A DNA stretch of 44,987 nt from Minisyncoccota bacterium. Its GTDB lineage: Bacteria; Patescibacteriota; Minisyncoccia; Phycocordibacterales; UBA9973. The stretch is taken from assembly GCA_031291825.1 (NCBI GenBank), contig JARLIG010000012.1, forward strand, positions 1 through 44,987, written 5' to 3'. Both the position numbers and the translations under genes were made by a program. The notes under the pieces are model-generated. The model saw only the letters and a list, made by a program, of their open reading frames with translations. It searched no databases and was not told the DNA's origin. Below, piece after piece: positions 29,589 through 33,466 of this stretch (within the stretch, counting starts at the first letter, position 1; every line of letters starts with the position of its first letter).

Positions 29589-30164
29589 TTTTTTGAGTAT
29601 CCTATCGGGAGCGGAAAATGGTATCAGGGAGCATATGAACCGATCATCACCAAAGAGCTTTACCTTAAAGCTCGAGCGAATGTACAGTCAGCACCCCGAA
29701 GACATCCAGGCACTCTTGAGTTTGATTTCACCAAACTCTTCTACTGCGGTGGTTGCGGTTCAGGAATTTCTGCCGAGGAAAAATTCAAACATTGCAAGAA
29801 CGGCAAAACACATAGATATGTATACTACCACTGCACCCATTCAGCAGATAGATACTGCAAACAAGGAGCATTAAGAGAAGAAAACTTAGTCGAACAACTC
29901 ATTAACTTAATAGACAAAATTGACCTCGATGAAATTGGCATCCGAGACCATATTGAGCATGAAGTGCTTAAATATCGGCAGTTCAGCTATACAATACTCG
30001 GCAAATCAACCGAATTTGACAACAAACCCATTGAAGCAGATGTCCGAAGCTACGCAAAACACATACTAAAAAACGGAACAAGGGAGCAGAAACGGGAGTT
30101 ATTGACCTGCCTGAGGAGTAAGGTGGAGATCAAGGATAAAAGTATTTATTTGAAAATTTCCTAA
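29589..30164 (+). pseudogene. 5'-truncated serine site-specific recombinase (C-terminal recombinase + zinc beta-ribbon part)
   Basis: Frame after TAA at 29586-29588 reads FFEYPIGSGKWYQGAYEPIITKELYLKARANVQSAPRRHPGTLEFDFTKLFYCGGCGSGISAEEKFKHCKNGKTHRYVYYHCTHSADRYCKQGALREENLVEQL... to the stop at 30164; no catalytic N-terminus. Confidence 0.88.
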
Positions 30165-30170
30165 GAAGAG

Positions 30171-30983
30171 TTATCTTGATGCACTCATAATGATTTGTCG
30201 AGAAACCTGATTAAACATTTGCCAAAAAAGTAGCGCGCCCTCTTGCTCCAGAGTAAATCCCGTACTTAGCTCTCGTTCGGGATGAATGAAATTTCTATAA
30301 TCGCGAAGGACAATGCCGATATCTTTTGCAGGTCTTCTTATCCACCCCAGCTCAGCTCCTACTTCTATATAACTATTCAACATCCACCTTTCCAAAGGTA
30401 TCACTTTTTTTGTTTTTGAATCAAGCGGTGCCGCTTTCGCTTTATAGACTGGACCCTTGTCAATAAGTTTGTTTATGCGAGCCAAAAACAAAGCTTCAAG
30501 CAATCCTCCCATCATAATAGTTGCGGCTAACGGCGCAGTACAATTAAGGCATTTTATAATCTCACTCCACCTATTGTCTAGAATTTTCTGCATTTCTAAG
30601 TTAGACGTAAGAGGTGAAAAATCAGGCTTAACAGAAAAATCACTTGCGTAAGATGAAGACGCTGATAAAGACTCAGATTGCAACGAGATTAGCGAAAGTT
30701 TTAATTTTTTTAAAACACTTTGATATTTTTCGCGAGATACGGCATGGGATGTATACTCAAACAATTGAGTATACCCAAACTCCACTTCTTTGGTGTGTGG
30801 ACTATCTTGGATATTTAAATTAGGGCGGTGATTGTTAAACCATGCTAAAGCTGTAGCTTTTATTATTTGCTGTTCTTCTTTAGATTTAACCTGAATAGGT
30901 TTACTCTTTTTGAGCAATTTACAAAGTCTATTAACTTCTTCAGTTGCCCTCTGAAGAACCTCCATTTGGTTATTCGACGACAT
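30171..30983 (-). CDS. HEPN-like domain protein (270 aa)
   Basis: C-terminal helical region with LRDYRNFIHPERELS (R-x6-H, RNxxH). Confidence 0.6.
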   Translation of the reverse strand: MSSNNQMEVLQRATEEVNRLCKLLKKSKPIQVKSKEEQQIIKATALAWFNNHRPNLNIQDSPHTKEVEFGYTQLFEYTSHAVSREKYQSVLKKLKLSLISLQSESLSASSSYASDFSVKPDFSPLTSNLEMQKILDNRWSEIIKCLNCTAPLAATIMMGGLLEALFLARINKLIDKGPVYKAKAAPLDSKTKKVIPLERWMLNSYIEVGAELGWIRRPAKDIGIVLRDYRNFIHPERELSTGFTLEQEGALLFWQMFNQVSRQIIMSASR

Positions 30984-30990
30984 ATTACTA

Positions 30991-31593
30991 CTACTTCTTT
31001 TTTACAGCAGTTTTTTTCTTAACTATCTTCTTTGGCTTGGAAGCTATTTTACTTATTTTTCTTTTGGCTGGGAGTGATCCAGGTAATGTCATCGCTACAA
31101 GATTTTCTCCGACAGCGTTTATGCGATACATCCCTGTTTCATCAGCTTTATCAAGAAAACCGGAATACGCTGCATTAATAAGAGTTTGTATTGGTTTTTT
31201 AGGGCGGCGGCGTTGTGCAAGACGACAAGCATCTATTATTTCATCTGAACCAATATAATTCTTTCGCTGATCCTCACCTACCTCAAATGCATAATAGTAA
31301 GCCACTACCGCTGCTAATTGTTGATCATTTTGAGGGTCTTTTTCATCAATGAAAGATTTTATATCCTTCACCGTCTTCCTTGAGGTATCAGATGCCGACG
31401 ACCTCGGGATTTCACTCCCCACCACAGTTTTATCTTTAGAAAGAATAGGTTGTAATCCAGACATACTAGTGAGGCCTAGTTTTTCAGAAGCCCATCTGAT
31501 GATTCTATCTCTTTCTGTATTGTCGAATGGTGCCAAAGCATCAACAAGAATTCTAACTGCCTCCAAATCGTCTTTTTTATCTTCTTTTGCCAT
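30991..31593 (-). CDS. Conserved hypothetical, winged-helix-like core with Lys/Ala-rich tail
   Basis: VKDIKSFIDEKDPQNDQQLAAVVAYYYAFEVGEDQRKNYIGSDEIIDACRLAQRRRPKKPIQTLINAAYSGFLDKADETGMYRINAVGENLVAMTLP; tail KPKKIVKKKTAVKKK. Confidence 0.6.
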   Translation of the reverse strand: MAKEDKKDDLEAVRILVDALAPFDNTERDRIIRWASEKLGLTSMSGLQPILSKDKTVVGSEIPRSSASDTSRKTVKDIKSFIDEKDPQNDQQLAAVVAYYYAFEVGEDQRKNYIGSDEIIDACRLAQRRRPKKPIQTLINAAYSGFLDKADETGMYRINAVGENLVAMTLPGSLPAKRKISKIASKPKKIVKKKTAVKKK

Positions 31594-31671
31594 AAGTTTT
31601 TGTATAAAATTATATGATGAAAGTATACTCCTAAAAACCAAGAAAGTACAAGTAAATCACTATTTTAAATG

Positions 31672-32643
31672 TTATTTGTTCTTTTCCTCCATATAGTCAT
31701 ACACAACCTTCGCCAGTTTCTCTGTCGGAAATCGTTTGCGCGGACTTAGCTGTTTGCTAACACTAAAAAATGCAATCACATAGTGAGAGTGGTCGCCTTC
31801 AACAACACCTGCATCGTTAACCCAACGGATAAATGCCCAGCCTTTGGTCAGAATGGTTTTGGCTAATTTGAAGAAATCTTTAGCAGCATAATCAATGGCA
31901 AATCCTGCTTTCTTATAATACGAACGGTAAAAGGGTGCGTAATAGTTGTTCTCTAGATATCCGCCTTTATGATAACCCAGGGTGTATTCTGAAAGTGAGA
32001 GCGGTCTATTTCCTTGTCGATTCCACCTCATCATATATTCCTTGAGTTTTTTTGAAACAAATGGACTAATGAGCTTTTCACTCTCTACCAAATAGAAAAA
32101 TTCGGCAACGTGACGAGCGCAGGTCATCGTTGTCTCTGACCAACGATACTTTGTATCTTCTTTACTTCGGTCGAGAAACTTGCGTGTGACACCGCTTCCT
32201 TTCCAGTCATACCTATCAATGATATTCTCATTGATGCTTTCCCGACCAACGAGATCGATCAACATATTAGAAGCTGTATTGTCACTTTCTGAGAGCATGA
32301 GATCAAGAAGATACTCTATAGTAATTTCTTCTCCCACAGTCAGGAGTTTTCGGCTTCGTCCAGGGAAAAGTTTTGGGTCTCTGTCGACATCGTTCGGGGA
32401 CGTAACCGCAATAGTCTGATCTAATGAAAAATCTCCAATTTCAACTCTTCGTAACACTTCTGCTCCGACAAAGATTTTGTACACAGATGCCGGATACATA
32501 AAGTGATCCATATTGTATCCGAATATCTTGGATTCTTTCTCTTTCAGATCGATGATGGCAAGACCAAGTTCTGTATTAGAAAAACCGTTTTCAAAGAGAA
32601 GTGTTTTTATTTCTTGGCTTCGAGTGGTGTCTTCGGAGAGCAT
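31672..32643 (-). CDS. Class A beta-lactamase-like serine hydrolase
   Basis: SVYK (SxxK), SESDNTASNML (SDN), YHKGGYLEN (KGG). Confidence 0.83.
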   Translation of the reverse strand: MLSEDTTRSQEIKTLLFENGFSNTELGLAIIDLKEKESKIFGYNMDHFMYPASVYKIFVGAEVLRRVEIGDFSLDQTIAVTSPNDVDRDPKLFPGRSRKLLTVGEEITIEYLLDLMLSESDNTASNMLIDLVGRESINENIIDRYDWKGSGVTRKFLDRSKEDTKYRWSETTMTCARHVAEFFYLVESEKLISPFVSKKLKEYMMRWNRQGNRPLSLSEYTLGYHKGGYLENNYYAPFYRSYYKKAGFAIDYAAKDFFKLAKTILTKGWAFIRWVNDAGVVEGDHSHYVIAFFSVSKQLSPRKRFPTEKLAKVVYDYMEEKNK

Positions 32644-32647
32644 ATAG

Positions 32648-33379
32648 CTAGTTTTTAATAACGTCTGCAACAACACCCATATGATCACTCACACCATCTA
32701 CCAATTTCACATTTAAAGCTGTGTAGCTTGGGGTCGTAAATAAGCCATCAACCATAAATTGTATACCTTTAACCCTATGTAAGTTCTGGTCAATACTTGT
32801 CTGATATTCTGAAGGAATATTGTCTTTGTACTTCTGTGCCAAACGGCCAAAGGTTTCACCTCCACGCGGAGCGTTCGTATCACCACAAAGAACAAACTCT
32901 CCAAGCATATCAAGCTGAGAGATTAAAGCATCCGTAACTTCTAGTTGGAAGGGACTGACAGATCCTTTATCTGTGACTGGTAAATGGGTTGTTACAAATT
33001 TATAGATTAGGCTATCATTACCTTTTGTGTCTATCCACGCAAGTGCGTAATTCTTCTGAGGGTCGTTTACGTATTCTTCAAAAGGTCTCAGAATATTCTC
33101 TTCTTTTCCGTAATAGAATACCGAACCCGAAGTAACGATGTTTTTAGCAAAGATACCTACTCCTTGTTTCTTGCCCATCAGTGTCGGATATTGTACTGGA
33201 TTTTTCCAATAGCTCACTGGTCGGTATATGCACTCAAAACCCAGTTCTTTCTTGAACATTTCAACATCTTCTTCTAGTAATTCTTGCATACAAATAACGT
33301 CAGCGTTCTCTCTTTTCAGGAATGCTAGAACGAGATCGGTGTGAAAATTACTTTCGATATTAACAGATATTAGTTTCAT
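32648..33379 (-). CDS. Endonuclease/exonuclease/phosphatase family protein
   Basis: MKLISVNIES..., VICMQELLEED, FVLCGDTNAPRGGE, GVSDHMGVVADV. Confidence 0.9.
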   Translation of the reverse strand: MKLISVNIESNFHTDLVLAFLKRENADVICMQELLEEDVEMFKKELGFECIYRPVSYWKNPVQYPTLMGKKQGVGIFAKNIVTSGSVFYYGKEENILRPFEEYVNDPQKNYALAWIDTKGNDSLIYKFVTTHLPVTDKGSVSPFQLEVTDALISQLDMLGEFVLCGDTNAPRGGETFGRLAQKYKDNIPSEYQTSIDQNLHRVKGIQFMVDGLFTTPSYTALNVKLVDGVSDHMGVVADVIKN

Positions 33380-33397
33380 ATATGGCATTTTGACCCA

Positions 33398-33415
33398 GAG
33401 GTAGGGATCGAACCT
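33398..33415 (-). repeat. 18 bp duplication of the tRNA-Asn 3' region
   Basis: gaggtagggatcgaacct, identical to 33570-33587. Confidence 0.85.
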
Positions 33416-33466
33416 CTGAACGTTATACAAATAAAAGATATTTTCTAAAACGACCATTTTGACGGA

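Follow-up and report, generated by a model that had tools for sequence, protein, structure and literature searches.

A winged-helix and HEPN-like gene pair in a Minisyncoccota genome: a candidate modular defence unit with an exchangeable nuclease

HEPN domains act as RNase toxins in abortive-infection (Abi), toxin-antitoxin (TA) and restriction-modification (RM) loci (PMC3710099), and it is with systems of this kind that we compare a two-gene cassette, here termed A and B, located on the minus strand of a 44,987-nucleotide stretch from a Minisyncoccota bacterium (contig JARLIG010000012.1; hereafter the window). The HEPN/MNT (HepT/MntA) systems share with A-B a two-gene operon in which the partner precedes the HEPN gene, and HepT is the best fold match of B by probability, whereas A is a predicted winged-helix protein without a nucleotidyltransferase match and B is about twice the size of HepT. 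The DUF4145-like HEPN proteins with AbiJ-type N-terminal domains (PMC3710099) resemble B in that a HEPN-like C-terminal domain is placed behind a variable N-terminal domain, and resemble the present set of loci in their restriction and Abi contexts, the general layout also being displayed by relatives in the same phylum (L002-L004; L numbers denote individual loci), on viral contigs and on plasmids. In contrast, B carries another domain at its N-terminus, is preceded by a winged-helix partner of its own, and scores below the DUF4145 model. The nearest published design is that of the CnuE effectors of CoCoNuTs (PMC11090510), in which a winged-helix module is coupled to swapped HEPN, phospholipase D and Vsr effectors in a manner reminiscent of the A loci; however, CoCoNuTs operate together with the CnuH helicase and a GTPase of the McrB type, while A is a separate protein. 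Neither this GTPase nor this helicase was seen among the immediate neighbours of the cassette (a beta-lactamase-like gene, an endonuclease/exonuclease/phosphatase-family gene and a recombinase piece), not every open reading frame (ORF) of the window having been scanned. The PD-Lambda-3 and PD-T7-3 systems and the short-Argonaute-associated HEPN and nuclease effectors included in PADLOC represent the same effector families as those found downstream of A homologues, yet A and B of the window match no PADLOC model. Furthermore, the PanA promiscuous antitoxin network (PMC10440598) is reported to combine one partner domain with many toxins, a likeness in overall design.

We favour, with modest confidence, the reading that A and B constitute a two-part modular self-destruct unit of an abortive-infection or toxin-antitoxin-like nature, with A as the putative sensor/adaptor and B as the putative RNase effector. 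Gene A (positions 30991-31593, minus strand) encodes a protein of 200 residues from the ATG at 31593, its frame extending upstream to a TTG at 31641 (216 residues), while gene B (30171-30983, minus strand) starts with ATG and encodes 270 residues; the gap between the end of A and the start of B is 7 bp, and both products are basic (pI 9.6 and 9.4, respectively). An earlier annotation, made from the sequence alone (hereafter the initial annotation), had described these two ORFs with the same spacing and the same shift of the A start, and had quoted the strings DACRLAQRRRPKKPIQTLINAAYSGFLDK, YRINAVGENLVAMTLP and LRDYRNFIHPE, all of which are present. Since orthologues of both exist elsewhere, A and B are genes and not chance frames. 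The pair is kept in a genome of another class within the same phylum (L041/L046), where identity is approximately 40% for A and, along the entire protein, 40% for B (L041:665-1486), and where the gap measures 11 bp; this second copy has an N6-methylase/HSDR protein at a distance of approximately 1 kb, and a tyrosine integrase is encoded close by. Neither protein returned a match in Pfam or NCBIfam, in PADLOC up to an E-value of 5 (the PD-Lambda-3, PD-T7-3 and other system models being unmatched), or in a direct sequence search of the PDB, and the A-B pair is not described in any paper found in the open-access literature. Together with co-conservation in a distant genome and the recurrent placement of A-type genes ahead of further candidate effectors and next to RM genes, these results sustain the earlier proposal of a candidate undescribed system.

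The A protein had been suggested to be winged-helix-like, which the present data support. A profile built from 26 members of the A family returned eight PDB matches, all to MepR/MarR proteins over their winged helix (E 9.5e-4 to 1.6e-3); an MNT nucleotidyltransferase was not matched in A. The corresponding region of A comprises residues 76-171 (31081-31368, minus strand), for which profile A14 matches MepR/MarR at E 9.5e-4, while single A relatives gave weak matches to Mrr_N, AbiEi_4 and HTH_46 only. AlphaFold modelling of A alone yielded a pLDDT of 43 and was used for helix order only, and the helix-helix-helix-strand-strand order in this low-confidence model agrees with a winged helix, the fold to which the profile evidence points. 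The region is preceded by an N-terminal helical hairpin (residues 3-38; 31480-31587, minus strand), with helices at residues 3-19 and 25-38 in the low-confidence single-sequence model, which recurs in the A-type proteins of L041, L007 and L008. It is followed by a lysine-rich tail (residues 172-200; 30994-31080, minus strand) that recurs in L041, L007, L008 and L015; the last 30 residues have a pI of 11.6, which is suggestive of DNA binding but no more than that.

The C-terminal domain of B (residues 120-270; 30174-30626, minus strand) was modelled by AlphaFold from an 11-row alignment as a confident helical domain with a pLDDT of about 90, whereas the N-terminal half is helical and poorly defined. 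Foldseek matched the model to HepT (7bxo_D, probability 0.90, TM-score 0.59 by target), and also to 1wwp and to the HEPN toxin 7ae8, which lends coherent support to, rather than proof of, a HEPN-like fold. Relatives of this part of B are found in the same phylum (L002-L004), on plasmids and on 15 viral contigs, and several of these match DUF4145, a HEPN family, at E 3e-4 to 0.1, all under the 23.1-bit cut-off; the C-terminal 150 residues of B fall in a HEPN family that scores slightly under it. The HEPN-type motif, R227-D-Y-R230-N-F-I-H234 (30282-30305, minus strand), corresponds to R227-x6-H234 with a second arginine in R230-x3-H234. From the 14 arginines and four histidines present in 270 residues, approximately 0.6 R-x4-6-H pairs would be expected by chance according to our own arithmetic, and the R-x4-6-H motif is therefore weak by itself, its weight deriving from conservation across relatives. 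R230, N231 and H234 are invariant in the 11-row alignment and in L041, and window B and almost every relative have the motif with R227. The HEPN-like assignment of B made by the initial annotation is thereby upheld, with DUF4145 as the main weak match of relatives and HEPN toxins as the likeliest PDB fold matches of the model; that annotation had named the lack of a HEPN fold or of co-occurrence of the two genes as evidence that would count against it, and the model gave a HEPN-like fold while the genes were found together.

A result which goes beyond the initial annotation concerns the N-terminal helical domain of B (residues 1-110; 30654-30983, minus strand), a proposed docking module that is shared with another A-partner carrying a different nuclease domain. 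Over its first 118 residues, window B matches the beginning of a pP_pnuc_1 (pPIWI-associated) nuclease protein (L007:2061-2873) with a phmmer E-value of 3.8e-4 and a reciprocal value of 6.8e-4, this being the best match among 1,145 ORFs outside the B pair. The similarity corresponds to a shuffle z-score of 8.7, with none of 2000 shuffles reaching it, whereas the C-terminal halves of the two proteins are unrelated (z 1.9) and the N-termini of 15 other effectors gave z-scores of about 3 or less. The B protein of L041 alone gave a z-score of only 2.4, so that N-terminal sharing rests mainly on one pair. On these data, the N-terminal domain stays constant while the nuclease behind it changes. The A proteins that precede the three B-type proteins with this N-terminal domain are also the three most alike, in line with direct docking.

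In about 1,000 genomes of the phylum, profile searches recovered A-like genes with E-values below 1e-5 at 25 loci; the loci were chosen on A alone, and some of them had seeded the profile. A candidate effector is located directly downstream of the A-type gene in 18 of the 25 loci, a raw neighbour count taken without a formal background. The window type is represented by two loci, while the remaining effectors include the pP_pnuc_1 nuclease (L007/L047, E 3e-12), a Ymh HEPN protein (L008/L048, E 1e-34), PD-T7-3-like proteins (L009/L049, L085 and L086, with L077 assigned by eye), a seven-member HEPN-like group with an invariant R-x3-H and the same R-x2-R-x3-H spacing as window B, a winged-helix/phospholipase-D-like protein (L044/L053, PADLOC PDC-S05, E 5e-15) and two proteins of no assigned family (L052, L088). 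Among PADLOC families, the A-partner effectors in relatives match Aga_HEPN, PD-Lambda-3_B, Aga_Nuclease and PD-T7-3. A-type genes often occur in tandem, up to four, and the A-type domain is also found at the N-terminus of some effectors.

RM genes were confirmed by Pfam at five A loci: L046, with the N6-methylase/HSDR protein; L047, with a TdeIII endonuclease and a methylase; L048, with an NgoBV endonuclease and a C5 methylase; and L051 and L052, where A genes lie inside type I restriction operons. A sixth, L089, was recognized by HsdS and HsdR homology, while L087 and L088 are RM-like by eye only. Small predicted membrane proteins are encoded beside the A-type genes in the type I restriction operons of L051 (5846-6427) and L089 (5329-5676), that of L089 being all that follows the A gene, and these may be membrane effectors. 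An apparent fusion of a LexA-type repressor to a DNA methylase with a TSPPYDD motif adjoins the A-type operon of L088 (4511-5953), and a separate LexA-like gene adjoins a methylase at L047.

In the mechanism that we infer for the window pair, the HEPN-like domain at the C-terminus of B is a predicted RNA-cutting domain, while the helical domain at its N-terminus would dock to A. In turn, A would probably bind DNA, hold B inactive or in position, and release its action on sensing that the cell is infected, that foreign DNA is present or that a restriction system has failed, with phage defence as the presumed outcome; in relatives, the A-type protein would be retained and the nuclease that follows it replaced by another. 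The distribution of A-B among close relatives is patchy, which fits the expectation for accessory defence genes. A number of observations weigh against this proposal. No RM gene was seen adjoining the A-B copy of the window, and the single N6-methylase match in its genome sits on another contig. Window B has no DUF4145 (PF13643) match, its HEPN matches in Foldseek have E-values of 0.6-2 with no PDB match below E 0.001, and the canonical HEPN arginine R227 is lost in its closest orthologue (L041), in which R230-N-x2-H234 is kept. Similarity within the A family is low (10-40%), such that distant members may differ in job. In addition, six of the 25 A loci, including one at the end of a contig, are without a visible effector, about a quarter in all; effector-free A-like genes such as those of L050 (7427-7939, G062), L080 and L081, one of which is directly ahead of dnaG-rpoD, possibly represent a domesticated branch of the A family.

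The gene order itself lends some weight to a plainer reading, in which A-B is a type II-like TA pair that stabilises an accessory island, with A as antitoxin and autorepressor and B as HEPN toxin, neither phage nor restriction status being sensed. A putative antitoxin first, gaps of 7-11 bp and a DNA-binding-type protein followed by a HEPN protein are the layout of HEPN/MNT (PMC3710099), and the island holds what is left of a recombinase, along with genes that relatives lack. We nevertheless regard this alternative as unlikely, given that A and B are both large for TA partners, that A-type genes form tandems and lie inside type I restriction operons, and that the fusion of some A-type domains to an effector would be odd for a labile antitoxin. 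The loss of R227 in L041 would also suit a catalytically inactive B, in which case the pair would form a complex with a regulatory or structural role, comparable to that of MtlR for mannitol genes, and would not be a toxin; some MtlR family proteins are among the HEPN superfamily members that lack the conserved motif (PMC3710099), and the weak fold matches of B include MtlR. This appears improbable in view of the three invariant motif residues, the known or candidate nuclease families that occupy the same place in relatives, and a metabolic operon context not having been seen.

It might finally be argued that the adjacency is incidental, with A binding DNA on its own account and B being an Abi-type protein that has no relation to A beyond a common promoter. 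A-like genes without a neighbouring effector exist (L050, L054, L078, L080 and L081), and most B-like C-terminal domains occur without A, but full-length retention of the pair at about 40% identity in another class, and an effector next in line at most A loci, render this explanation very improbable. Beyond the self-destruct unit proposed for the window, we tentatively put forward, as a serious possibility, a phylum-wide undescribed class of plug-in defence modules in which one to four winged-helix sensor/adaptor genes would be followed by an exchangeable nuclease (HEPN, pPIWI-associated or phospholipase D), exchanged behind a shared docking domain, and would be inserted within or next to RM loci as a fail-safe suicide arm. 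Phage defence is poorly known in these probably host-dependent bacteria with their very small genomes, and if the proposal is true, a single compact pairing of adaptor and nuclease recurs throughout the phylum with varying nucleases, the common N-terminal domain offers a direct handle on sensor-effector wiring, and a search profile becomes available for modules now missed by Pfam, NCBIfam and PADLOC.

Other phyla were sampled for A only through plasmid, phage and viral collections. Phage records contained no relative of A or B, plasmid records none of A and, for B, relatives of its C-terminal domain alone, and neither A nor the N-terminal domain of B had a relative on viral contigs; no plasmid with a pP_pnuc partner and a tandem A protein was found, a viral fold library gave no firm match, and AbiJ_NTD of Pfam was not matched in B. 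The sole genome-collection match to B (L005) was aligned via a chance string to an unrelated type I restriction-locus protein and was discarded, weak A-profile matches (L016-L019) were judged to be chance, and a B sequence profile returned bromodomain-type noise only from the PDB. Of the relatives of B, one with a different N-terminal domain (L002, 2575-3375) adjoins a C5 DNA methylase, one on a plasmid adjoins TIGR02679/TIGR02680 genes and another plasmid-borne relative is near Qat defence genes.

Convergent with B lies a truncated serine recombinase (29589-30161, plus strand), of which only the C-terminal piece is present (zinc ribbon PF13408, E 2.1e-6), with no long ORF upstream able to hold a catalytic domain, in line with the decayed recombinase reported by the initial annotation. 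Transposition of the cassette by a serine recombinase is no more than possible; the gene is now a fragment only. A promoter and terminator scan gave a number of sites not above that in shuffles. Upstream of A, a class A beta-lactamase-like gene (31672-32649, minus strand; PF13354, E 7.5e-32) with SVYK and SDN motifs was not found in the 20 relatives searched, and is part of the accessory island, outside the A-B module. The start of its frame is overlapped by the endonuclease/exonuclease/phosphatase-family gene (32648-33457, minus strand), and the two possibly share one operon.
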